Shown here: positions 2,876 to 33,417 of the stretch, one piece after another
Layout: the number at the start of each line of letters is the position of its first letter
How positions within the stretch are numbered: position 1 is the stretch's first letter
From: Micromonospora echinofusca
GTDB lineage: Bacteria; Actinomycetota; Actinomycetes; Mycobacteriales; Micromonosporaceae
NCBI RefSeq assembly: GCF_900091445.1
Contig: NZ_LT607733.1
Coordinates: 806,001 to 870,000 of the forward strand
Length of the DNA stretch: 64,000 nucleotides
Direction of reading: 5' to 3'
Notes under the pieces: generated by a model
What the model saw: only the letters and a program-made list of their open reading frames with translations
Told to the model about the DNA's origin: nothing
Database searches by the model: none
Position numbers and translations under genes: made by a program

Positions 2876-4030
2876 ATGGACCGTCGTACCGTCCTGCGCG
2901 CCACCGTCCTCGGCGGCGCCGCCGCCTTCTCCGGCAGTCTCTGGGCCGGCGCCGCCCTGGCCGCCCCTGCTCAGCCCGGTGCCAGCCCGTACGGGCCGCT
3001 CGGCGCGGCCGACGCCAACGGCCTCCAACTGCCCGCCGGTTTCACCAGCCGGGTGATCGCCCGCTCCCGGCAGACGGTGCCGGGGACGTCGTACACCTGG
3101 CACGACGCGCCCGACGGCGGCGCCTGTTTCGTCGCCGGCACCGGATGGATCTACGTCTCGAACTCCGAGATCCTGACCACCGGCGGGGCCTCGGCGGTGC
3201 GCTTCGACGCCGACGGCAGCGTCGCCTCGGCGTACCGCATCCTGTCGAACACCAACCGCAACTGCGCGGGCGGCGCGACCCCGTGGGGGACCTGGCTCTC
3301 CGGCGAGGAGGTCAGCCGGGGATACGTGTACGAGACGTACCCGCAGGGCGGCCGGGCCGGGGTGCGGCGGGCCGCGATGGGCCGGTTCAACCACGAGGCG
3401 GCGGCCTGCGACCCGGAGCGACAGGTCGTCTACCTCACGGAGGACGAGACCAGCGGCTGCTTCTACCGGTTCCGGCCGACCACCTGGGGCGACCTCTCGG
3501 CCGGCACGCTGGAGGTGCTGGTCGCCGGCACGGGCACCAGCGGCCCGGTGAGCTGGGCGCGGGTGCCCGACCCGGACGGCTCGCCCACGCTCACCCGCAA
3601 CCAGGTCTCCGGGGCGAAGAGGTTCAACGGCGGCGAGGGCTGCTGGTACGCCGACGGCACCTGCTGGTTCACCACCAAGGGCGACAACCGGGTCTGGGCC
3701 TACGACGCGGTCGACCAGCGCATCGACCTGGCGTACGACGACTCGCTGGTCTCCGGGACGGCGCCGCTGACCGGGGTGGACAACATCACCGGGGCCCGCT
3801 CGGGCGACCTCTACGTCGCCGAGGACGGCGGCAACATGGAGATCAACGTGATCACGCCGGCGGGGGTGGTCGCCCCGTTCCTGCGGATCACCGGCCAGTC
3901 CTCGTCGGAGATCTGCGGGCCGGCGTTCTCGCCCGACGGCGGCCGGTTCTACTTCTCGTCGCAGCGCGGCACGTCCGGCTCCTCCTCCGGGGGCATCACC
4001 TACGAGGTACGCGGCCCGTTCCGCTCCTGA
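2876..4030 (+). CDS. Tat-exported DUF839/PhoX-like protein
   Basis: A 384-residue exported protein. The N-terminus MDRRTVLRAT, a hydrophobic Ala/Gly stretch and an ALAAP cleavage site (about residues 1-30) form a twin-arginine signal peptide. The mature part carries the PhoX/DUF839 propeller features: GGATPWGTWLSGEE, a glycine-rich FNHEAAACDP segment, TEDETSGCFYRF, and a C-terminal CGPAFSPDG. PhoX relatives are calcium/iron phosphatases; this is shorter than classical PhoX, so the catalytic activity is not certain. The start at 2876 is chosen over an upstream ATG because GGAGG lies nine bases before it and the signal peptide begins there. Confidence 0.85.
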   Translation: MDRRTVLRATVLGGAAAFSGSLWAGAALAAPAQPGASPYGPLGAADANGLQLPAGFTSRVIARSRQTVPGTSYTWHDAPDGGACFVAGTGWIYVSNSEILTTGGASAVRFDADGSVASAYRILSNTNRNCAGGATPWGTWLSGEEVSRGYVYETYPQGGRAGVRRAAMGRFNHEAAACDPERQVVYLTEDETSGCFYRFRPTTWGDLSAGTLEVLVAGTGTSGPVSWARVPDPDGSPTLTRNQVSGAKRFNGGEGCWYADGTCWFTTKGDNRVWAYDAVDQRIDLAYDDSLVSGTAPLTGVDNITGARSGDLYVAEDGGNMEINVITPAGVVAPFLRITGQSSSEICGPAFSPDGGRFYFSSQRGTSGSSSGGITYEVRGPFRS

Positions 4031-4090
4031 CCGCCCGCCGGGCGCGATCATGCGGCGTGCCGGAGGCGCCGGCGGGGTATGTGGGCGGTC

Positions 4091-4306
4091 ATGAGTCACG
4101 AGCAGAGCGACCAGGAACGGGTGGAGTCCCGCGCCCACCTGCTGCCCGAGGAGGCGGCGGCCGGCAGCGACGACCCCCACGCGCAGGCGGCGGCCATCCT
4201 CGCCGAGTCCGACCTCCGGGAGGAGGACCGCAACGCCGCCCCCGACACCGTGCTGGAGCGGCGTACCTCCGATCAGACGGTGACCCCCATCGAGCCCCCC
4301 GACTGA
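4091..4306 (+). CDS. Small hydrophilic hypothetical protein
   Basis: A 71-residue Glu/Asp/Ala-rich protein beginning MSHEQSDQERVE and ending EPPD; likely disordered, with no domain recognised. An ATG four codons upstream (4079) is an alternative start. Its 3' end overlaps the convergent gene at 4273-5013 by 34 bases, an arrangement without a terminator between the two. Confidence 0.55.
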   Translation: MSHEQSDQERVESRAHLLPEEAAAGSDDPHAQAAAILAESDLREEDRNAAPDTVLERRTSDQTVTPIEPPD

Positions 4307-5013
4307 GCCACGGCGCCCCGGGCCCGTCGCGAGCCCCGGTAGGTGTGCTCCCGCAGCCAGGCGATCGGGCCGACCGCCCGCAGCCCCGGCGGGAGATTGC
4401 CGATCGGGTCGAAGGCCAGCGCCGCGTCGTCGCGGGCGCTGAGCTGGGCACCGAGGCTGACCTGCCCGAACGGCCGCCACGGCCCGACGGCGGACGCGAC
4501 CGCGAGCACCAGGCGCGGCGCGTCCGCCCGGGCCGCGGCGGCGACCTCGGGCAGGCTGCGGCCCAGGTCGGGCGACTCCGGGTCGGCCAGCGCGGCCAGG
4601 AAGAGCCGCCGCCGGCCCGCGCGGAACGGCATGATCGTGCTGTACGTCCCCGCGAAGCGGCGCCGGGGCAGCGGCAGGTTCCGCAGCAGCGGCGCGGCCC
4701 CGCTGGAGCTGACCAGCAGGTCGAACGGCCGGCCCGCGTCGGAGTGCAGCCGCACGGCCAGCCCCAGCACGTCCGGCCAGGCGCCCGGGGTGGGCACGCC
4801 CTTGGAGAGCCGGACGGTCGCCGGGAAGCGTCCCGGATCGTCCAGCAGCGGCACCCCGGTCGGCGGTCCCGGCGTACCCCAGACGACGACCTCGCCCGTG
4901 AACGAGCGGCCCGCGGGATGCAGCAGGCGGGCCCGGCGTAGCCGGGTCAGGGCGGCGGTCGCGCGGTCGACTGCGACGGCGGCCCGGTCGGTCACGGTGG
5001 CGGCAGGCGGCAT
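4273..5013 (-). CDS. Catalase-fold-like protein, function unknown
   Basis: A 246-residue soluble protein. Blocks such as LHPAGRSFTGEVVVWG, a PATVRLSKGVPTP segment, PDVLGLAVRLH and DLLVSSSG recall the heme-catalase-like fold family that is often labelled phosphodiesterase in actinomycete genomes. I see no catalase active-site His/Asn pair, so peroxidase activity is not supported. The start at 5013 gives an Ala-rich N-terminus; GTG/ATG alternatives nearby cannot be excluded. It overlaps the end of the small plus-strand gene before it. Confidence 0.5.
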   Translation of the reverse strand: MPPAATVTDRAAVAVDRATAALTRLRRARLLHPAGRSFTGEVVVWGTPGPPTGVPLLDDPGRFPATVRLSKGVPTPGAWPDVLGLAVRLHSDAGRPFDLLVSSSGAAPLLRNLPLPRRRFAGTYSTIMPFRAGRRRLFLAALADPESPDLGRSLPEVAAAARADAPRLVLAVASAVGPWRPFGQVSLGAQLSARDDAALAFDPIGNLPPGLRAVGPIAWLREHTYRGSRRARGAVAQSGGSMGVTV

Positions 5014-5102
5014 GCCTCCCCGGTACCCGGCGGCCGGCGGTCGATGCCTCGCCGCGTGCGGCGCGTCCCGCTGCGCGTCCCCCGATCGGATAGCGTCGTG
5101 CC

Positions 5103-6395
5103 ATGCCCGACAGCGGTTACCCCTGGCCCATCGAGACCACCCGCCTGGACAACGGCCTGCGCGTGGTGGTGAGTGAGGACCGCACCGCCCCGGCGGTCGC
5201 GGTGAACCTCTGGTACGACGTCGGTTCCCGCCACGAGCCCGAGGGGCAGACCGGCTTCGCCCACCTCTTCGAGCACCTGATGTTCGAGGGCTCGGTCAAC
5301 GTGGCGAAGACCGAGCACATGAAGCTGGTGCAGGGCGCGGGCGGCTCGCTCAACGCCACCACCAACCCGGACCGCACCAACTACTTCGAGACCGTCCCCG
5401 CCGAGCACCTCGAACTGGCGCTGTGGCTGGAGGCCGACCGGATGGGCGGGCTGGTCCCCGCGCTGACCCAGGAGACGCTGGACAACCAGCGGGACGTGGT
5501 CAAGAACGAGCGGCGCCAGCGCTACGACAACGTGCCCTACGGCGACGCCTGGCTGCGGTTGCTGCCGCTGCTCTATCCGCCCGGACACCCCTACCACCAC
5601 GCCACGATCGGGTCGATGGCCGACCTCAACGCCGCCGACCTGGCCACCTTCCAGGCGTTCCACCGGACCTACTACGCGCCGAACAACGCGGTGCTCACCG
5701 TGGTGGGCGACGCCTCGGCCGCCGAGGTGTTCGCGCTGGCCGACAAGTACTTCGGCGCGATCCCGCCGCGCGCGCAGATCCCGCCCGCGCCGGACGGCCG
5801 GACCGTCGCGGCCACCGGCCGACCCGCCGTGGAGACGGTCACCGCCGACGTGCCGGCGCCGCGCGTCTACGTCGCGCACCGCACCCACCCCTTCGGCAGC
5901 CCGGGCTACGACGTGCTGACGGTGCTCGCCACCGTGCTGGGCAGCGGCCGGGGCAGCCGCCTCTACCAGCGCCTCGCCGACGGGGAGCGGATCGCCCAGC
6001 CCGACCTCGTCGGGGCGTACGGGGTGGACCTCGCGCACGCCCCCGCGCCGCTGATCGCCACCGCCACGGCCCGCCCCGGGGTCAGCGCCGAACGGCTGGG
6101 CGCCGGGCTGGCCGAGGTGGTCGACGAGTTGGCCACCGTGCCGGTCACCGCCACCGAGCTGGACCGGGCCAAGTCCCTGTTGAGCACCTCGTGGTGGCGG
6201 CAGATGTCCACGGTGGACGGCCGGGCGGACACGCTCGGGCGCTACGCCACCCAGTTCGGCGACCCGGCGAAGGCCGCGCAGCGGCTGCCGGCCTGGCTCG
6301 CGGTGACCGCCGAGCAGATCGCCGAGGCCGCCGCCGAGGTGCTCGCCGCCGACGACCGGGTGACCCTGACCTACCTGCCCGAGGAGAAGCACTGA
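5103..6395 (+). CDS. M16 family zinc metallopeptidase, catalytic subunit
   Basis: A 430-residue M16B-type peptidase. The inverted zinc motif HLFEHLMFEG (HxxEH, about residues 56-65) is intact, and the third ligand Glu lies in the downstream NERRQ segment (about residue 135). No signal peptide is seen, so it is probably cytoplasmic. M16B peptidases are clam-shell enzymes that degrade peptides and often act as a heterodimer with a non-catalytic partner. The next gene encodes exactly such a partner and starts within the stop codon of this one (TGATG), so the two are translationally coupled. Confidence 0.93.
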   Translation: MPDSGYPWPIETTRLDNGLRVVVSEDRTAPAVAVNLWYDVGSRHEPEGQTGFAHLFEHLMFEGSVNVAKTEHMKLVQGAGGSLNATTNPDRTNYFETVPAEHLELALWLEADRMGGLVPALTQETLDNQRDVVKNERRQRYDNVPYGDAWLRLLPLLYPPGHPYHHATIGSMADLNAADLATFQAFHRTYYAPNNAVLTVVGDASAAEVFALADKYFGAIPPRAQIPPAPDGRTVAATGRPAVETVTADVPAPRVYVAHRTHPFGSPGYDVLTVLATVLGSGRGSRLYQRLADGERIAQPDLVGAYGVDLAHAPAPLIATATARPGVSAERLGAGLAEVVDELATVPVTATELDRAKSLLSTSWWRQMSTVDGRADTLGRYATQFGDPAKAAQRLPAWLAVTAEQIAEAAAEVLAADDRVTLTYLPEEKH

Positions 6396-7741
6396 TGACG
6401 CTGATCGCTGACCGCCCCGGGCCGGGCGCCGCCCGCCCGTACCGGTTCCCGCAGGTGGTCCGGCGCACGGTCGCCGGTGGTCAGGTGGTCGCCGCGCACC
6501 TGCCCGGGCAGAACCTGGCCGTGGCGCTGCTGCTGCTCGACGCGGGCGCCGGGCGCGAACCGACCGGCAAGGAGGGGCTCGGCGCGGTGCTCGCCAAGGC
6601 ACTGGAGGAGGGGACCGCGCAGCGCGACGCGACAGCGTACGCGCTGGCGATCGAAGGGCTCGGCACCGAGCTGGTGATCGGCCTGGACTGGGACTCCTTC
6701 CAGGTCAGCGTGCAGGTGCCGGTGGAGCGGCTGAGCGCCGCCGTGGAGCTGCTCGCCGAGGCGGTACGCACCCCGAAGCTGGACCCGGACGACGTCCGGC
6801 GGGTGCGTGACGACGAGGCGACCGCGCTGCGGATGGACTGGGCCAACCCCGGCCCGCGGGCCGACGCGGCACTGCGCGCCGACCTGTTCGGCGCCGGCAA
6901 CCGCTGGGGCCGCCCCATGTACGGCGACCCGGAGTCGGTGGCGGCGCTGGACGTCGAGGACGTCACGGTCTTCCACTCCGAGTGGTTCATCCGCCCCGGC
7001 ACGCTGATCGTCGCGGGTGACCTGGAACGGCTGGACCTGGACGCGCTCGGCGCGACGGCCTTCGCCGGCACCGGCGGCGGGCCGGTCGAGCAGGGCGGCC
7101 CGATCGAGGTGCCGACCCGCTCCGGCCGACGGATCATCCTCGTGGACCGGCCCGGGTCGGTGCAGTCCACGCTGCGGCTGGGCCACCCGTCGCCGCACCG
7201 CGCCCACCCCGACCACGTGCCGATGACGCTCGCCGGCACGGTGCTCGGCGGGGCGTTCACCTCCCGGCTCAACCACCTGATCCGCGAGGTGCGCGGCTAC
7301 ACGTACGGCATCCGGGGCGACTTCGCCTCGTCCCGCCGGTTCGGCCGCTTCGGGGTCAGCTCCAGCGTGCAGACGGCCGTCACCGCGCCGGCCGTCGTCG
7401 AGGCCGTCGGGGAGATCACCCGTACCCGCGAGACCGGGGTGACCGAGGAGGAGCTGGCGGTCGCGCGTTCCTGGCGGGCCGGGCAGCTCTCGGTGGAGTT
7501 GCAGAGCCCCCGGGCCATCGCCGGCGCGCTGACCACCCTGGTCGTGTACGACCTGCCCGACGACTACCACGCCCGGCTGCGGGAGTCGCTGCTCGCCGCC
7601 GACGTGGCCCAGGTCTCCGCGGCGGCCGCCACGCACCTGCGCCCGGAGGAACTCACCCTCGTGGTGGAGGGCGACGCCGCCGTGATCCGCGACGAACTCG
7701 TCGCCACCGGCCTGGGCGAACTCGTCGAGGACGCCTCCTGA
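6395..7741 (+). CDS. M16 family peptidase, non-catalytic partner
   Basis: A 448-residue M16 homologue in which the HxxEH zinc motif is absent: the equivalent segment reads EGLGAVLAKALEEG. The substrate-binding Arg/Tyr region is kept (LNHLIREVRGYTYG, about residues 290-305). This is the usual division of labour in bacterial heterodimeric M16B peptidases, one subunit carrying zinc and the other the R/Y motif. Start ATG overlaps the stop of the catalytic gene (TGATG), arguing for equal expression of the two chains. Confidence 0.93.
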   Translation: MTLIADRPGPGAARPYRFPQVVRRTVAGGQVVAAHLPGQNLAVALLLLDAGAGREPTGKEGLGAVLAKALEEGTAQRDATAYALAIEGLGTELVIGLDWDSFQVSVQVPVERLSAAVELLAEAVRTPKLDPDDVRRVRDDEATALRMDWANPGPRADAALRADLFGAGNRWGRPMYGDPESVAALDVEDVTVFHSEWFIRPGTLIVAGDLERLDLDALGATAFAGTGGGPVEQGGPIEVPTRSGRRIILVDRPGSVQSTLRLGHPSPHRAHPDHVPMTLAGTVLGGAFTSRLNHLIREVRGYTYGIRGDFASSRRFGRFGVSSSVQTAVTAPAVVEAVGEITRTRETGVTEEELAVARSWRAGQLSVELQSPRAIAGALTTLVVYDLPDDYHARLRESLLAADVAQVSAAAATHLRPEELTLVVEGDAAVIRDELVATGLGELVEDAS

Positions 7742-22479: not shown

Positions 22480-22522
22480 GTGCGCCCGGCAGGATTCGAA
22501 CCTGCGGCCTTGGGATTAGAAG
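22480..22522. repeat. Left attachment core (43-bp direct repeat)
   Basis: Identical to 33344-33386. Contains the 3' half of tRNA-Arg from the anticodon loop to the discriminator base on the minus strand. Outside the repeat the sequence reads GAG, so this displaced copy has no encoded CCA. Confidence 0.93.
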
Positions 22523-23219: not shown

Positions 23220-23789
23220 ATGGGCCCTATGAGCGATCTGTACGTCGTGCGGTTCGGTGATGAGCCGGAGAGTGGCCCCCCGCCTGAGGACGATGAGGAC
23301 GGCACCGATGTCAAGACCACCTTTGCGCACTTCGGCCTGACCTACTACCGAGCCTGCGTGCTGGAACACCAGGTGGTCAACATGCTGGCCTTCTCACGGC
23401 TTCTGGAAGCTGAGGCCGAAGCGAGGAGGCTCCTCAACGATCCTTGGGATGAGCACTTCAAGGAGACCTTGGGGCGGCTGGTTCGTCGCTTCACACAGCA
23501 GGCGCAGGGCAACCCGCAGCTTGTAGACGACCTGGCTGAGGCAGTGCGGTTGCGGAACCACCTCGCCCATGCCTTCTGGAGGGAACGCGCAGAGGACTTC
23601 TGTTCCGACGCGGGGCGAGCTGACATGATCGCCTTCCTCAAAGAGGCCCGGGATCTCTTCATCTCGGTTGATGAACGACTCACCGAGCTGGCGGAAGCGC
23701 AGCGGAGGCGTGCGGGCATCACCCAGGAGCTAATGGAGCAGCACTACCAGACGATGCTGGCGCGAGCTGAGGCAAGGGACCAAAGCTGA
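23220..23789 (+). CDS. AICE cargo: HEPN-motif protein, putative RNase
   Basis: A 189-residue helical protein. The segment LAEAVRLRNHLAHAFWRERA (about residues 108-127) contains RNHLAH, an exact match to the HEPN catalytic motif RNxxxH that marks many toxin, abortive-infection and Cas-type RNases. It is embedded in long amphipathic helices as expected for the fold. A charged acidic N-terminus (residues 10-30) precedes it. No ribosome site is clear at ATG 23220 or 23229. No antitoxin is adjacent; instead a highly foldable non-coding segment starts 42 bases after the stop. RNase or defence function is inference from the motif. Confidence 0.6.
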   Translation: MGPMSDLYVVRFGDEPESGPPPEDDEDGTDVKTTFAHFGLTYYRACVLEHQVVNMLAFSRLLEAEAEARRLLNDPWDEHFKETLGRLVRRFTQQAQGNPQLVDDLAEAVRLRNHLAHAFWRERAEDFCSDAGRADMIAFLKEARDLFISVDERLTELAEAQRRRAGITQELMEQHYQTMLARAEARDQS

Positions 23790-23830
23790 GCGGGCAGCCG
23801 CCCTGACGGAACGGTGGTCGCCACTCTGCC

Positions 23831-23966
23831 CCCATCCCCCGGATAGGTGCCAAGGACTGCGTCGCCTGGTCGGGGTCAAGGGTGGCCGTAGGCCATCGGC
23901 GTGCCGACGCATAGCGCCCTTGACGCCGGGCAGGTGGCGTAGAGAATCGGGCATCCGGGGGATGGG
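23831..23966 (+). ncRNA. Candidate structured RNA or replication/transfer structure
   Basis: This 136-base segment folds almost completely. Outer stem: 14 perfect pairs (23831-23844 with 23953-23966). Middle stem: 23857-23868 pairs with 23931-23942 through 12 pairs including three G-U wobbles, extended by 23870-23873 with 23926-23929. Inner stem: GTCAAGGG (23875-23882) with CCCTTGAC (23917-23924). It encloses three contiguous hairpins with no unpaired bases between them: TGGCC-GTA-GGCCA, TCGGC-GT-GCCGA, CGC-ATA-GCG. The wobbles pair only in plus-strand RNA. No coding frame fits. It may alternatively be a single-strand or transfer origin structure. Confidence 0.5.
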
Positions 23967-24277
23967 TCACGCCCTGGTCCTCGTCGTCATCGAACCGCGG
24001 GCGGTACCCGAGAGACTTCGGAGGCAAGCAGCTCCGCTGCGCGGCAGCCGATCGCCCCAACCTCGACGGGCGTAACCCCGACGGCGATCGTCCCGCCTTA
24101 GCCCTTCATGCCCTTGCTGGTTCCGTCAGCGTGGCCGGCCGGCCCGGCCGATGCCGGCCGAAGGTCGCCAGCAGGCCGGGGCCGGGCCGGCGCGGCCCGC
24201 TTGCGGGCCGCCTTGATCTAATAGAGCGCAATTCGGCAGTGTTGTGAGGCGTCGCTGTGTCCCGTCGCCGTGCAGCG
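23967..24277. other. Non-coding stretch with further inverted repeats
   Basis: Between the structured segment and the PP2C gene end. It holds an 8-bp repeat CGATCGCC/GGCGATCG around 24049-24088 and dense GGCCGG-rich palindromes from 24130 to 24211. No convincing gene. A minus-strand open frame at 23719-24060 overlaps the HEPN gene and is rejected. Confidence 0.45.
24192..24211 (-). terminator. Hairpin downstream of PP2C gene
   Basis: Perfect 8-bp stem GCGGCCCG/CGGGCCGC with CTTG loop, 67 bases beyond the PP2C stop on the minus strand, inside a run of GC palindromes. No T run. Confidence 0.5.
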
Positions 24278-28040: not shown

Positions 28041-29471
28041 GTGCCGCTGGTCAACGTGATCCGGGGTGACCGGATCGAGGAAGCCCCCCTGAACCTGCGA
28101 ACCCCGATCATCCGTATCCCGCTGTGGCTGGCCATCTCCTGGTGGGGCGCGAAAGCGGTCGGCCGGATGGCGGTGTTGGCGGGCCGATACTGGTACGTCA
28201 CCGCCCCGACCGCCGGCCTCACCTGGCTCTACCTGCGCTACGGCTGGGCCGGTCCCGCTGTGACCGTGGGCGGGATCGGGTCGGCTGCCGCCGGCTGGTG
28301 GTACGGACACCGCCCGTCGTTCCTGCGGTTCGGCTGGTACCCGACCCTGGCCCGCTTCCGGCGGTGGTCGTACCGGCGCAACTGGCACGCCGCGATGGTC
28401 ACCGCCCGCTTGGCGGTCGCCTTCGACTCCCACACCGTCCTGCCCGTCCTGCGCCGGGTCCGCTGCGGTGCGGGGGTGGATGTGGTGACGGTGCGGATGG
28501 TCACCGGCCAGATCCCCGACGACTTCGCGAAGGTCGCCGAACGCCTCGCCCACACGTTCGGTGTCCGGCAGGTCAAGGCCGTCCCCGGCACGCGGCCGGA
28601 TGTGGTGCTGCTGCACCTGTACCGCGGCGACCCCCTCGCCAAGCTCGTCCGTCCGCTGCCGGTGCCGGCAGTACCGGAGTTCACCGCCCTGCCGGTGGGT
28701 CGGCAGGAAGACGGCGAGGTGTATCCGCTGCGCCTTTTCGGCACTCAGGTGCTGGTCGTGGGTGCGACGGGTGCGGGGAAGGGCTCGGTCATCTGGTCCA
28801 TCGTCCGCTCGCTCGCCGCCGGGGTCACCTCAGGTCTGGTGCAGGTCTGGGGCCTCGACCCGAAGGGCGGCATGGAACTCGGCATCGGTGCGCCGATGTT
28901 CGCCCGCTTCGCCTGCAAGGACTACGCGGCCATGTGCGAGCTGATCGAGGAAGCCGCGTCGGTGGCGCGCGAGCGGGCGGGGAAGCTGCGGGGTCGGACC
29001 CGCCAGCACACCCCCACCGTCGATGAGCCGCTGATCGTCCTCGTCATTGACGAGCTGGCGAACCTCACCGCGTACCTGACCGACCGGCAGCTCAAGGACC
29101 GCATCAAGGCCGCTCTCTCGATCCTGCTGTCCCAAGGTCGGGCGGTGGGTGTGCATGTGGTGGCGGCGATTCAGGACCCCCGCAAGGAAGTGCTCCCGTT
29201 CCGGGACCTGTTCCCGACCCGTATCGGTCTGCGTCTGACCGAGCCGGCTCAGGTCGACCTGGTCCTTGGTGAAGGGATGCGCGACCGGGGCGCGTTGTGT
29301 GACCGCATCCCCAAGTCCCTGCCCGGCGTCGGATTCGTGGTCCTCGACGGGGACCCGACCCCGATGCGGGTCCGGTTCTCCTACCTCAGCGATGACGAGA
29401 TCCGCGACATGGCCCACACGTACGGGCGGCTGCGCGTGATCGACGGCGAGATTCTGGACGGTGCCGCATGA
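28041..29471 (+). CDS. FtsK/SpoIIIE-type conjugal DNA translocase (TraB/TraSA family)
   Basis: A 476-residue membrane ATPase that moves double-stranded element DNA between mycelia. Two or more membrane segments lie in residues 20-85. The motor domain has Walker A GATGAGKGS (about 235-243) and Walker B IVLVIDELA (about 330-338), and a later QGRAVGVHVVAAIQDP segment. The C-terminal DNA-recognition winged helix of large TraB proteins is not obvious. The stop overlaps the next gene (ATGA). No tandem GACCCGGA transfer site is seen nearby. Confidence 0.9.
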   Translation: MPLVNVIRGDRIEEAPLNLRTPIIRIPLWLAISWWGAKAVGRMAVLAGRYWYVTAPTAGLTWLYLRYGWAGPAVTVGGIGSAAAGWWYGHRPSFLRFGWYPTLARFRRWSYRRNWHAAMVTARLAVAFDSHTVLPVLRRVRCGAGVDVVTVRMVTGQIPDDFAKVAERLAHTFGVRQVKAVPGTRPDVVLLHLYRGDPLAKLVRPLPVPAVPEFTALPVGRQEDGEVYPLRLFGTQVLVVGATGAGKGSVIWSIVRSLAAGVTSGLVQVWGLDPKGGMELGIGAPMFARFACKDYAAMCELIEEAASVARERAGKLRGRTRQHTPTVDEPLIVLVIDELANLTAYLTDRQLKDRIKAALSILLSQGRAVGVHVVAAIQDPRKEVLPFRDLFPTRIGLRLTEPAQVDLVLGEGMRDRGALCDRIPKSLPGVGFVVLDGDPTPMRVRFSYLSDDEIRDMAHTYGRLRVIDGEILDGAA

Positions 29472-30217
29472 GCGCTAACCCTGGACCGGGCACGGTGACC
29501 GAGCAGTTCGCCGCCGAGTACGCCCGCAACGCCGTGCCGACCATGCTCAAGGCCATTGGCTCGATCAAGCGCTACAACCGGTTCGTTCTGCTCGGTGCGC
29601 TGCTGACCAGCTACCTGCACCAAGCCCACTACCTGTGGACCCAGAACGCCGGCTACTTCGCCTACCTCGTGCCGCTGATCTTCGACGCGGCCATGGTGTC
29701 GATGCTGACCGTCGTCCGCACCTCCGGCATCGCGAAAGATGCCAAACGCGGCGCGATGGTCGTCTTCGCCGCCGCCGCACTGCTGTCGGCCACCATCAAC
29801 TTCGCGTCCCCGGGCAGCCTCGGCCTACGGCTGGTCTTCGCCCTGGTCGTCGTCCTCGTCATCGGCGTCGAACTCGTCGCCGGCCGCATCCGACCCGACT
29901 TCGCCGCCATCGAAGCCGAAGCCGCCGCCCTTCTCGCCGCCGCCAACGACCTAGCCACCAAGAACCAACCCCCCACCATCGAGCAGCCCAACCCCGCCCA
30001 GGCAACCGAACAGGTCACCACCGCGCCCGCCCCGCCGGTCGAGCCGCCGACCCCAACGGTTGACGAACCGGCCCCGATCGTTCCGGCCCCGATCGACCCG
30101 AACCCTGCCCCTGTCCTTGAACCCGTGCCGGCGCGCACGGTTCCGCTTGCCCCGGTACCGCCGGCCGCGTTCGTCCGCCGCAACGGCACCCCTGTCATCG
30201 GGGAGGTGACCCGTTGA
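29468..30217 (+). CDS. DUF2637-like membrane protein (Spd-like)
   Basis: A 249-residue protein. Four membrane segments lie at about residues 38-140 (RFVLLGALLTSYLHQAHYLW is the first), followed by a long Pro/Ala/Thr-rich tail. A membrane protein of this type between the translocase and replication genes is a regular AICE feature and may help spreading or anchor the transfer machinery. Starts inside the translocase stop and ends inside the rep start, both ATGA or TTGA-type overlaps. Confidence 0.75.
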   Translation: MSANPGPGTVTEQFAAEYARNAVPTMLKAIGSIKRYNRFVLLGALLTSYLHQAHYLWTQNAGYFAYLVPLIFDAAMVSMLTVVRTSGIAKDAKRGAMVVFAAAALLSATINFASPGSLGLRLVFALVVVLVIGVELVAGRIRPDFAAIEAEAAALLAAANDLATKNQPPTIEQPNPAQATEQVTTAPAPPVEPPTPTVDEPAPIVPAPIDPNPAPVLEPVPARTVPLAPVPPAAFVRRNGTPVIGEVTR

Positions 30218-31926
30218 CCACCACCCCGACGCTGCCCGGCCTCACCCCCACCCCCGATGCCTCGGCGGGTCCGAGGCCGGGCTCTCGGGCCGCCCGCATG
30301 CTCATGCCCCGCTCCGTCGACGTCGTGGCCGATCTCGCCGCCGACTACGGCGTCTGCACCCGACCCGTGTCCCTGCGCCGCACTGACCTCGACAGCGGAC
30401 AGACCGAAGTCGTGGACATGCCGTGCGGCGCCACCCAGGAAGCCAAGTGCCCCGCCTGCGCGAAACGAGCTCGCCGGCTGCGGCAGCAGCAGATCCGGGA
30501 GGGCTGGCACCGTAGCGACGAACCCGACCCCGGACCCGAACCCGCCACCGACGCCCAACGCGGCCTGATCGTCGTCCGCGCTCACCTGGAGTTCGCCCGC
30601 GACGAGGCCGCTCGCGCCTCGCAGTGGGACCAGGTCGCCGACCTGGACGAAGCAATCAGCGAACTGGAAGGCCAGATCACCACCGAAGGGCTCCGCGGTC
30701 GACCCGCACCCCCACACCACAGCGACGACCAGGAGGACGGCGACGGCAAGCGGCGGGTGCGCTCCACCAAGCGGCGGCAGGACGCCCCCGACCTTCCCCG
30801 CCTCCCCGTGGAGAACCGGACCGTAGGCCGCACGTACGAGGGTCGGGCCGGCATGGTGTTCCGGCCGTCGATGTTCCTAACCCTCACGCTCGGCTCCTAC
30901 GGCCGCGTCCACTCCGACGGCACCCCGGTCAACCCGGACGCCTACGACTACCGGCGGGCCGCTTGGGATGCCGTGCACTTCCCTCGGCTGCTTGATCGGT
31001 TCTGGCAGAACCTTCGCCGCGCGGTCGGCTGGAACGTCCAATACGCCGGTGCCGTCGAACCGCAGCGCCGGCTGGCCCCGCACGCGCACTTCGCCATCCG
31101 GGGCACCATTCCCCGGGCGCTGGTGCGGCAGGTCGCCGCCGCCACCTACCACCAGGTGTGGTGGCCCCCCGTCGACGTGCGCGTCTACGAACCGGGCAAC
31201 GCGCCGCAGTGGAACCCGGACGCGGGCGGCTACACCGACCCGGACAGCGGGGAACTGCTGCCGTCGTGGGATGACGCCCTGGACCTCCTCGACGCCGACC
31301 CCGACGCCGAACCCGTACACGTCGTGCGGTTCGGCGTGCAGGTCGACGCCAAGGGCGTCCTCGCCGGCACCAAGGACGCCGACCGGTGCGTCGGCTACAT
31401 CACCAAGTACCTGACCAAGCAGGCCGCCGACTGCCACCAGGTGACCACCGGCCGGCAGCGGGCACACCTCGAACGACTCTGGCAAGAACTGCGGCACACG
31501 CCCTGTTCCGAGCGGTGCGCCAACTGGCTGCTCTACGGCATCCAGCCGAAGAAGGCGCGGCCCGGGTTGAAGCCGGGTAACTGCAAGAACAAGGTGCACA
31601 AGCGGGACACCCTCGGCATCGGCGGCCGGCGTGTCCTGATCTCCCGGCAGTGGTCGGGAAAGACCCTCTCCGACCACCGCGCCGACCGGAAGGACTGGGT
31701 CAAGGCCCTGCTCGGCGTCACCACCGACGCCACCACCGCCCCGCCCGGCGGGGAACAACGCCACGCCTGGGAACTCGCCCGGCCAACCGACCCGGACGTC
31801 GCGCCGCTGGGCCACCGCGTCCTGCGCGCGATCTCCGAGCGGATCCAATGGCGCGCCCAGCTCGACGCCGCAAGACGCGCCGCCGACCCGCCCAGTGCTT
31901 CGGCAGTACCTCACTTCATTCGCTAG
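30214..31926 (+). CDS. repSA: RepSA-type rolling-circle replication initiator
   Basis: A 570-residue initiator. A Cys-rich zinc-like segment CGATQEAKCPAC (about residues 72-83) precedes a HUH nickase core: MFLTLTLGSYG, then RRLAPHAHFAIRG (about 285-297, the His-hydrophobic-His metal motif) and CVGYITKYLTKQ (about 391-402), which supplies the likely nicking Tyr. This arrangement is typical of RepSA of pSAM2-like AICEs, which replicate by rolling circle after excision. TTG/GTG start at 30214 overlaps the preceding stop. No frameshift. Confidence 0.9.
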   Translation: MTTTPTLPGLTPTPDASAGPRPGSRAARMLMPRSVDVVADLAADYGVCTRPVSLRRTDLDSGQTEVVDMPCGATQEAKCPACAKRARRLRQQQIREGWHRSDEPDPGPEPATDAQRGLIVVRAHLEFARDEAARASQWDQVADLDEAISELEGQITTEGLRGRPAPPHHSDDQEDGDGKRRVRSTKRRQDAPDLPRLPVENRTVGRTYEGRAGMVFRPSMFLTLTLGSYGRVHSDGTPVNPDAYDYRRAAWDAVHFPRLLDRFWQNLRRAVGWNVQYAGAVEPQRRLAPHAHFAIRGTIPRALVRQVAAATYHQVWWPPVDVRVYEPGNAPQWNPDAGGYTDPDSGELLPSWDDALDLLDADPDAEPVHVVRFGVQVDAKGVLAGTKDADRCVGYITKYLTKQAADCHQVTTGRQRAHLERLWQELRHTPCSERCANWLLYGIQPKKARPGLKPGNCKNKVHKRDTLGIGGRRVLISRQWSGKTLSDHRADRKDWVKALLGVTTDATTAPPGGEQRHAWELARPTDPDVAPLGHRVLRAISERIQWRAQLDAARRAADPPSASAVPHFIR

Positions 31927-31945
31927 AGCAGGAAGGGGCCAGAGC

Positions 31946-32128
31946 ATGAGCGAGAAGAAGAGCGTCCGGCCGGCTGAGGCTGCAGCCCTGCTCGGCGTCT
32001 GTCGGGACACCGTCTACGTCCTGATGCGCTCGGGTCGGCTGCGGTCGGTGAAGCTCGGGCGGGCTCGCCTGATTCCGGTCGCCGCGATCGAGGAGCTTCT
32101 TTCGGCAACCGAGGAGTTCGCGGCATGA
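31946..32128 (+). CDS. xis: Excisionase
   Basis: A 60-residue winged-helix protein: SVRPAEAAALLGVCRDTVYV and MRSGRLRSVKLGRARLIPVA are the standard MerR-like excisionase layout. It should bend attachment-site DNA and steer integrase toward excision. ATG 31946 follows GGAAGGGG. Stop overlaps the int start (ATGA), so xis and int are co-translated. Confidence 0.9.
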   Translation: MSEKKSVRPAEAAALLGVCRDTVYVLMRSGRLRSVKLGRARLIPVAAIEELLSATEEFAA

Positions 32129-33261
32129 GCGGCAAGCGGCGTCGGTCCCACGGGGAGGGATCGGTCTTCAAGTATCGGGACGGCTTCGCGGCTGTGCTCG
32201 AAGTGGGCTGGGGTGAGGGCAAGCGGTCTCGCAAGTGGGTCTACGGCAAGACGGAGCGGGAGGTGCTCGGCAAGTTGGCCGACCTTCGCCGCCGCCAGGA
32301 GCAGGGGCAGAACCTCGCTGCTGCGCCCCGCACCGTGGGGGAGTGGCTGGACGAGTGGCTGCGGATGAAGGAGCGCGACGGAACCCGACCGTCAACTTTG
32401 CAGGGCTATCGGAAGCTCATCGAGAACCATGTCCGTCCGGCCCTTGGCCGGCTGGCGCTCGACAAGCTGACTCCGACCGTCATCCGCCGGCTGTTGGCTG
32501 AGAAGACAGACTCCGGTCTCTCGGCAACGACGGTCCGCCACATCCACGGCTTGATCCGGAATTCGCTCGGTGACGCGGAGCGGGAGGAGCTGGTGCACCG
32601 CAACGCCGCGAAGTCGGTCCGTCCGCCCGCGATGCGTCAGGTCGAGCGGCGCGCCCTGGGCGTGGATGAGGCCAAGCGCCTGCTCGATGTACTGAAGGGT
32701 CACCGACTAGAAGCGCTGTACGTCTGTGCCCTAACGGTCGGGCTCCGTCGCGGGGAACTGCTCGGGCTTGCCTGGTCGGACATCGACTTCGACGCCGGCA
32801 CCCTGACCGTTCGGCAAACCGTTCAGCGTGCCGATGGCCGGTTGCAACTCGTGGCACCCAAGACGGAGCGGTCCCGGCGGACGGTTCCGGTGCCGGCGCA
32901 GACCGTCGCCCTCTTCCGCGCGCATCGCCGGCAGCAAGCCGCGGATCGGTTGGCGGTGGGGGAGCGGTGGCAGGATCACGGCCTGGTCTTCCCGTCCAAG
33001 GTCGGTACGCCGATGGACCCGGACCACATCGACCGGACGTGGCACAAGATCCGGGCGGCGGCAGGCCTCGACTGGCTGCGTCTGCACGACCTGCGGCACG
33101 CCTGCGCGACGTTCCTGCTCGTCTCCGGTGCCTCGCCCCGAACCGTGATGAAGGTGCTCGGGCACAGCCAGATCGGGCTGACGATGAACACCTACGCTCA
33201 TGTCCTGCCGGAGATCGAGCGGGCAGCCGTGGACGAGGCCGCGAAGCACCTCTTCGGCTGA
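32125..33261 (+). CDS. int: Tyrosine site-specific integrase
   Basis: A 378-residue phage-type integrase acting on the tRNA-Arg site. An N-terminal arm-binding AP2-like domain (about 8-60) is followed by the SAM-like core-binding domain (about 70-165). The catalytic residues are all present: Arg in TVGLRRGELLGL, Lys in APKTERSRR, HDLRH, LGHSQ and the nucleophile Tyr in MNTYAHV (about residue 355). It appears intact. The gene ends 84 bases from the tRNA 3' end, inside the right attachment region. Confidence 0.96.
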   Translation: MSGKRRRSHGEGSVFKYRDGFAAVLEVGWGEGKRSRKWVYGKTEREVLGKLADLRRRQEQGQNLAAAPRTVGEWLDEWLRMKERDGTRPSTLQGYRKLIENHVRPALGRLALDKLTPTVIRRLLAEKTDSGLSATTVRHIHGLIRNSLGDAEREELVHRNAAKSVRPPAMRQVERRALGVDEAKRLLDVLKGHRLEALYVCALTVGLRRGELLGLAWSDIDFDAGTLTVRQTVQRADGRLQLVAPKTERSRRTVPVPAQTVALFRAHRRQQAADRLAVGERWQDHGLVFPSKVGTPMDPDHIDRTWHKIRAAAGLDWLRLHDLRHACATFLLVSGASPRTVMKVLGHSQIGLTMNTYAHVLPEIERAAVDEAAKHLFG

Positions 33262-33284: not shown

Positions 33285-33343
33285 GGGGGCCGTGGTGATC
33301 GTCCCGACCGGGAGCGGGAAGCCGCTGACTTGCTGCGATGGTG

Positions 33344-33386
33344 GTGCGCCCGGCAGGATTCGAACCTGCGGCCTTGGGATTAGAAG
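33344..33386. repeat. Right attachment core (43-bp direct repeat)
   Basis: Identical to 22480-22522 and forms the 3' part of the functional tRNA-Arg. The three bases before it read TGG, giving an encoded CCA on the tRNA strand, which the left copy lacks. Confidence 0.93.
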
Positions 33387-33417
33387 TCCCCTGCTCTATC
33401 CGCTGAGCTACGGGCGC
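33345..33417 (-). tRNA. tRNA-Arg (TCT anticodon)
   Basis: A 73-nt cloverleaf on the minus strand: acceptor GCGCCCG/CGGGCGC, D arm GCTC/GAGC, anticodon loop CTTCTAA giving TCT, T arm GCAGG-TTCGAAT-CCTGC, discriminator A. The outermost anticodon-stem position appears to be a G-A mismatch. CCA is encoded at 33344-33342. Its 3' 43 bases were supplied by the integrated element. Confidence 0.95.

Follow-up and report, generated by a model that had tools for sequence, protein, structure and literature searches.

A hairpin in a Micromonospora AICE: more probably a folded DNA start signal or a mobile repeat than an RNA partner of the gene beside it

Near the left end of an AICE in Micromonospora echinofusca, just behind a short gene, lies a 136-base sequence that folds into a large hairpin. 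What is this structure for, and does the element use it at all? The original prediction, drawn from the letters of the window (the whole 64,000-nucleotide stretch analysed here), offered three answers: an RNA partner or guide of the neighbouring protein, a regulatory RNA of the element, or a replication or transfer origin structure. That interpretation is partly supported by our analysis. In our reading a folded DNA start signal or a mobile repeat suits the hairpin better than a role as RNA partner of the adjacent gene, and the hairpin belongs to a unit that runs to about 24241, beyond the 136 bases first described.

The hairpin and its host element

The AICE lies between attL (22480–22522), where 43 bp of the tRNA-Arg gene are repeated directly as an exact copy of 33344–33386, and attR, those same positions 33344–33386 inside tRNA-Arg (33342–33417, minus strand). 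Its plus strand encodes an FtsK/SpoIIIE-type, TraSA-like transfer protein (28041–29471; PF01580, E 7.6e-10), the replication initiator RepSA (30214–31926; PF20199, E 1.3e-103), an excisionase with an HTH_17 domain found by Pfam scan (31895–32128) and a tyrosine integrase (32125–33261; PF00589). A scan of 19 window proteins revealed neither a relaxase nor MobC. Rolling-circle motifs are present in RepSA-like proteins, according to passages of a published report (PMC3218068).

The hairpin at 23831–23966 (plus strand) is real and far more stable than chance. Its arms, 23831–23844 and 23953–23966, form the perfect 14-bp inverted repeat that had been predicted. Folded as RNA, the plus strand reaches −93.3 kcal/mol against a mean of −61.5 for shuffled sequence (z −7.98), and none of 200 shuffles did as well; the excess stability that the original prediction asked to have checked is thus confirmed. 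The minus strand folds less well as RNA (−73.1; z −5.8), and DNA parameters give the same ranking (−51.5 for the plus strand versus −40.7 for the minus). With DNA parameters the plus strand adopts the predicted outer, middle and inner stems enclosing three back-to-back hairpins, but the RNA minimum fuses part of those inner hairpins. To call the element almost fully paired was generous: the RNA fold has 51 pairs, six of them G-U, which account for 102 of the 136 bases and leave about a quarter unpaired, and it is interrupted by one 4-nt bulge and one 5 × 7 internal loop.

Wobble pairs had been taken to favour a transcribed RNA. Among 1002 cells from 20 copies of the hairpin we counted 109 G-T pairs and 30 A-C mismatches, a count biased by a structure derived from the window itself; like the pair count for the core given below, it leans on structures from the same sequences, with copies counted individually and without tree weighting. 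The excess of G-T over A-C indicates that the plus strand is the folding strand, but it does not tell RNA from single-stranded DNA.

These properties, the strong plus-strand fold and the G-T bias among copies, could suit a transcribed structured RNA, either a regulatory RNA of the element or a substrate or guide of a HEPN protein. The gene in question, a 189-aa ORF at 23220–23789 (plus strand, from the ORF list), was called HEPN in the original prediction and does contain RNHLAH, an R-x4-H motif, and the hairpin does adjoin it, with 41 bases between them instead of the 42 noted. Pfam, however, reports no HEPN domain in the ORF. A tblastn search with its protein (E ≤ 1e-4) matched nothing in 60 loci of 16–20 kb, 40 of which carry the hairpin unit or part of it (modules A+B or B, defined below), so that a partnership with a HEPN protein, for want of any linked homologue in these loci, is unsupported and was set aside. 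Nor did anything speak positively for a regulatory RNA: Rfam reported only tRNA-Arg in the window, and its best sub-threshold match over the element had an E-value of 0.34. Further, the genes beside the conserved core of the hairpin, and their strand, vary from locus to locus. We regard an RNA function of either sort as very improbable.

A dispersed unit and its conserved core

Sequence alignment places the hairpin as the left part, hereafter module A, of a non-coding repeat of about 420 bases that recurs in related bacteria. When the segment 23150–25130 was compared with 160 genomes of the genus, 131 had some match to any part of the query (E ≤ 1e-5), and at about 20 places the match ran from about 23810 to 24150–24241 with 82–91% identity. 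In an alignment with 19 further copies (two of which, both from genome G158, are near-identical, flanks included), the inside of the unit aligns and the flanks mostly do not. On this basis the whole dispersed unit spans about 23819–24241 on the plus strand. Its left end is the less certain, several copies sharing a short TAGACCGTCCAG-like stretch further to the left. Behind module A come a less conserved middle, module M (23967–24121); module B (24122–24217), a set of GC-rich hairpins ending GCGGGCCGCCTTGA, delimited by alignments and by a match to plasmid pIJ101; and a tail ending AATTCGGCA (24218–24241). In six of the 19 A+B copies the similarity stops at about CCTTG(A), position 24217; otherwise the tail continues to 24241. 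Module B is also dispersed without A, and in at least 17 of 21 such loci another hairpin-rich part, C, precedes it. Module A itself occurs once in its own genome (G000), which disposes of the idea that it is a multicopy repeat there; B does recur, at G000:C1:1276297. The notion that B ends a protein-coding insertion sequence was likewise dropped, as four loci read upstream of B held no long conserved frame.

The most conserved part of module A is a core at 23876–23923 (plus strand), reading TCAAGGG..AGCGCCCTTGA with internal hairpins. It was defined by pair changes and by an alignment, A1, of 17 sequences (the window and 16 plasmid loci), in which 24 columns are invariant. RNAalifold assigns 23 pairs to the core alignment, and nine of these 23 keep pairing through two-sided changes in one sequence or more. 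The CAAGGG stem, of eight pairs, shows too little variation to speak for or against the fold.

The core is widely distributed. On plasmids it occupies sites that have no annotated gene, in Micromonospora, Verrucosispora, Streptomyces, Curtobacterium, Mycobacterium, Nocardia, Cutibacterium, Gulosibacter, Streptosporangium, Kocuria, Rothia, Xylanimonas and Glutamicibacter. A model of the core, R1, matched 124 of 354 family genomes at E ≤ 1e-3 and, at E ≤ 1e-6, 49 of 246 sampled genomes of the class, representing 20 of 103 genera. As a DNA pattern the core was found in at least 120 genome stretches, Caulobacter MAGs among them. The same pattern had no match in viral contigs, phage records gave no match either, and an origin in viruses was set aside on that ground.

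What accompanies the core differs between loci, in gene content and in strand. Among 164 core loci clustered by nearby ORFs, a set that includes duplicates (L006 and L023, for example, look like one plasmid), a MobC family occurs near the core in 10 and a tyrosine integrase family in 11; in mainly Streptomyces loci of this set a HATPase family occurs in 15, partly spuriously, since some of the ORFs overlap the repeat, and a DUF5753 family in 14. One of the core-locus analyses took 96 of 150 loci from the family-genome and DNA-pattern matches. A resolvase gene family stands directly before the core in four of the 164 loci, and the idea of a resolvase res site was abandoned.

Some individual occurrences deserve mention. 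The core is carried by a 1579-bp plasmid with a single annotated RHH gene (L002:773-819) and by a 3459-bp plasmid with three annotated hypothetical or HTH genes (L016:1644-1694). Glutamicibacter plasmid pR912A has two direct copies 1.2 kb apart (L017:2801-2848 and 4002-4049).

The unit could simply be a mobile palindromic repeat, MITE-like or HUH-mobilised (a REP/REPIN or IS91-type derivative), that lies idle in the AICE and moves as A+B, C+B or the core only with the help of an enzyme acting in trans. The mostly unalignable flanks of the 19 copies fit such a repeat, as does the different part, C, ahead of B in most B-only loci. The Streptomyces copies of the core fit it as well: two cores were present in 19 loci, of which 16 come from Streptomyces, and all 16 hold divergent pairs. 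In the family labelled f19, genome G495 has as many as 18 core copies and G485 has eight, along with foldback copies of about 770 bp at four loci; among the genes enclosed by core pairs in G495 are an APH-like gene, an NmrA-like gene and one for a GntR regulator. IS-type transposase genes also lie near some copies, those of the HTH_32/IS-like family in four loci, of the rve family in six of 40 and of the DDE_Tnp_4 family in four of 40, yet the last also in one of 20 control loci.

Other observations sit poorly with an idle repeat. None of the transposase families accompanies the copies regularly or lies regularly within the unit, and a target duplication could not be established. The strand of module B, constant in nine of nine loci, is not expected of random insertion, and the 24 invariant columns of the core extend over distant genera. 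At a candidate empty site beside rnpB the flanks are not conserved, and the comparison there speaks for neither side. The unit resembles MITE, REP and REPIN repeats in being dispersed, palindromic, non-coding and multicopy in some genomes, but, by the familiar sizes of REPs, it is larger, and it is more structured than they are. We judge a mobile repeat to be possible though on the unlikely side; given the dispersed Streptomyces repeats, the f19 copies and the transposase genes near some copies, a repeat without function for the AICE keeps a substantial share of the probability. If that is what it is, the unit would represent a widespread structured repeat family, over whose copy in the window no Rfam model matches.

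In f19 the core stands divergently at both ends of stretches of 0.5–3.7 kb (loci L186-L191 in G495 and L182-L185 in G485). The cargo genes of G495 differ by locus, and no transposase was found among the proteins scanned there.

Relaxase plasmids and the transfer-origin reading

The core of module A contains GCGCCCTT, which resembles the presumed nick region of the RSF1010 and rhizobial oriT. The reading favoured at first was an oriT for a MOBP or MOBQ relaxase, by which the relaxase-less AICE could be mobilised in trans. Of 16 fetched plasmids, each with an intergenic core, six have mobC and a relaxase gene no more than 4 kb away from it; the six are from Micromonospora, Verrucosispora (whose relaxase is of PF03432), Curtobacterium, Gulosibacter, Cutibacterium and Xylanimonas. 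The combination of hairpin and GCGCCCTTG resembles the rhizobial oriT, and in eight sequences at most two of 2000 dinucleotide shuffles did as well, in a test that was not blind to the choice of query. The host genome also has a mobC-relaxase operon elsewhere, at 1.92 Mb, with a relaxase 38% identical to that of L006. Relaxase counts by PF03432 scan under-report, since the scan returned none for G000 although a relaxase is present, and missed G248.

The family as a whole does not bear this reading out, for the core is not found beside its own relaxase gene throughout. Among nine held-out plasmids chosen by relaxase similarity, the core was clear in one (L173), weak in one (L178) and absent in seven, two of which have relaxases about 61% identical. 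Conversely, the core is common to two relaxase groups that are only 16–18% identical. Where it lies with respect to mobC differs between plasmids, and no copy of the core could be recognised at the mobC-relaxase locus of the host genome itself. Model R1 ranks the rhizobial oriT just ninth of 31 in its own locus. Although both have a hairpin followed by GCGCCCTT, and the rhizobial oriT has CAAGGG..CCCTT arms, module A differs in its extra hairpin, in the 130-base palindrome around it, in its location on an AICE without a relaxase and in the failure of R1 on the rhizobial site. The held-out plasmids, the two relaxase groups and the R1 ranking lowered oriT from main reading to an unlikely one. 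A large Mycolicibacterium survey that screened its plasmids with known oriT sequences is reported to have detected none (PMC8190616).

The mobC-relaxase operon of the host genome (G000:C1:1920018-1921765, L171) has an integrase gene about 3 kb upstream and may be part of an integrative mobilisable element; a 19-bp hairpin lies about 380 bases upstream of its mobC. In an Aeromicrobium plasmid (L178:3273-3341), a simpler palindrome, GTCAAGGGC..GCCCTTGACGG, some 350 bases ahead of mobC, is possibly a stripped-down relative of the core.

Module B and the start of the second strand

Module B connects the unit to rolling-circle plasmids. It matches pIJ101 with 93% identity over 44 bases (E 4e-7), at a non-coding site near 7287–7330, and five other Streptomyces plasmids match too. 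A longer alignment takes in about 95 bases, ending GCGGGCCGCCTTGAT, in both pIJ101 and an S. silaceus plasmid of 7.2 kb that carries an FtsK-domain gene. Within loci of 16–20 kb, a RepSA homologue was found in five of 20 B-only loci, two of 20 A+B loci and none of 20 controls (taken from 20 of the genomes by shifting coordinates); for an integrase-like homologue the corresponding numbers were 11, five and one. In all nine loci examined (the window, L287, L291, L309, L310, L315, L320, L324 and L325), B lies on the strand of the RepSA or FtsK homologues, a count in which L309 contributes only a 35-aa RepSA piece and from which L313, with a 28% FtsK match, was left out. Module A is present in three of the nine, on the same strand, and absent from six; C precedes B in five of these six, and L310 has neither A nor C.

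Conjugation and rolling-circle replication each take DNA through a single-stranded stage, and rolling-circle AICEs, rolling-circle plasmids and relaxase plasmids all need a start for the second strand. Such signals have precedents. Excerpts of published work describe an sso (sti) in pIJ101, with spdA between rep and sso (PMC4170104), and a role for the ICEBs1 sso in maintenance and stable acquisition (PMC4595007). Given the passage of these elements through single strands, and these precedents, we tentatively read A+M+B as a cis-acting module active in folded, single-stranded form, a second-strand signal of the sso/ssi type, while putting this at somewhat below an even chance. RepSA replication, together with conjugation in the A-bearing plasmids, would yield single-stranded DNA. 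In the strand that has the sense of rep and tra, modules A and B would then fold, and from these folds a host polymerase or primase could begin the complementary strand. In this inferred scheme both modules would function as single strands, the displaced strand folding and priming second-strand synthesis. What the analysis shows is the fold, its conservation together with paired changes at some positions, roughly where the unit ends, on which strand B lies relative to rep and tra in the nine loci, and the pIJ101 match. Like an sso, the hairpin is non-coding and strongly folded on one strand, B keeps a fixed orientation, and RepSA is encoded on the same AICE.

Against the second-strand reading stands the lack of a RepSA homologue in 18 of the 20 A+B loci, RepSA being the one Rep type sought within their 16–20 kb. 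Module A is also missing from six of the nine loci with constant strand, the aligned pIJ101 stretch around the B match shows no module A, and the core is dispersed in Streptomyces, often as divergent pairs, and brackets unrelated genes there as it does in f19. Of the three functions originally proposed, an origin structure fits best, with a core that is intergenic on plasmids (some of them with mobC and relaxase) and a B that matches a pIJ101 site, but the scarcity of RepSA among A+B loci counts against it.

Among known systems the unit resembles the sso/sti region of pIJ101: that region too is non-coding and hairpin-rich, it belongs to a rolling-circle element with FtsK-type transfer, and B aligns to this plasmid near 7287–7330, at a site that may be the mapped sti or may lie at clt. 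The pIJ101 stretch compared differs in showing no module A. The sso1 of ICEBs1 is likewise the second-strand origin of a rolling-circle integrative element, according to its description (PMC4595007), but it comes from a different phylum and is likened here by description, not by sequence.

The B match in pIJ101 could instead be clt, which lies close to korB in that plasmid (passages of PMC3583192). Module B would then be a clt-type site for the FtsK-like protein, which transfers double-stranded DNA, with A as an accessory structure. Consistent with this, B lies upstream of the FtsK gene and on its strand in the seven of the nine loci where FtsK was found, as well as in the S. silaceus plasmid; in pIJ101 the match is upstream of the gene at 3897–5843, presumably tra. 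The clt of pIJ101 is described, in those same passages (PMC3583192), as an imperfect inverted repeat of about 54 bp with three 5-bp direct repeats. Module B is longer than this and GC-rich, and our repeat search in the window, which took repeats of at least 12 bases, is blind to 5-bp repeats of clt size. A clt-type site strikes us as improbable.

If module A does act in single-stranded DNA as a second-strand signal, it would be a candidate second-strand origin for AICEs and would offer a sequence by which to recognise mobile DNA in Actinobacteria. Sites of this kind are already known, whether as folded cis sites of rolling-circle elements or as palindromic repeats; this particular repeat family was not described in the open-access literature that we searched. 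More speculatively, and with considerable doubt, A may represent an Actinobacteria-wide class of single-stranded DNA hairpin signals that start the second strand once DNA has been replicated or transferred, regardless of the transfer machinery. Such a signal would be a cassette shared among rolling-circle AICEs, relaxase conjugative plasmids and tiny plasmids, and would later have spread as cargo-bracketing repeats in Streptomyces chromosomes.

Close to rnpB, the host genome carries another AICE (L325, G000:C1:1266300-1286299), with module B at G000:C1:1276297-1276410. Its RepSA and FtsK proteins are 95% and 97% identical to those of the window AICE and its integrase only 32%, and it has the hairpin part C where the window has A.
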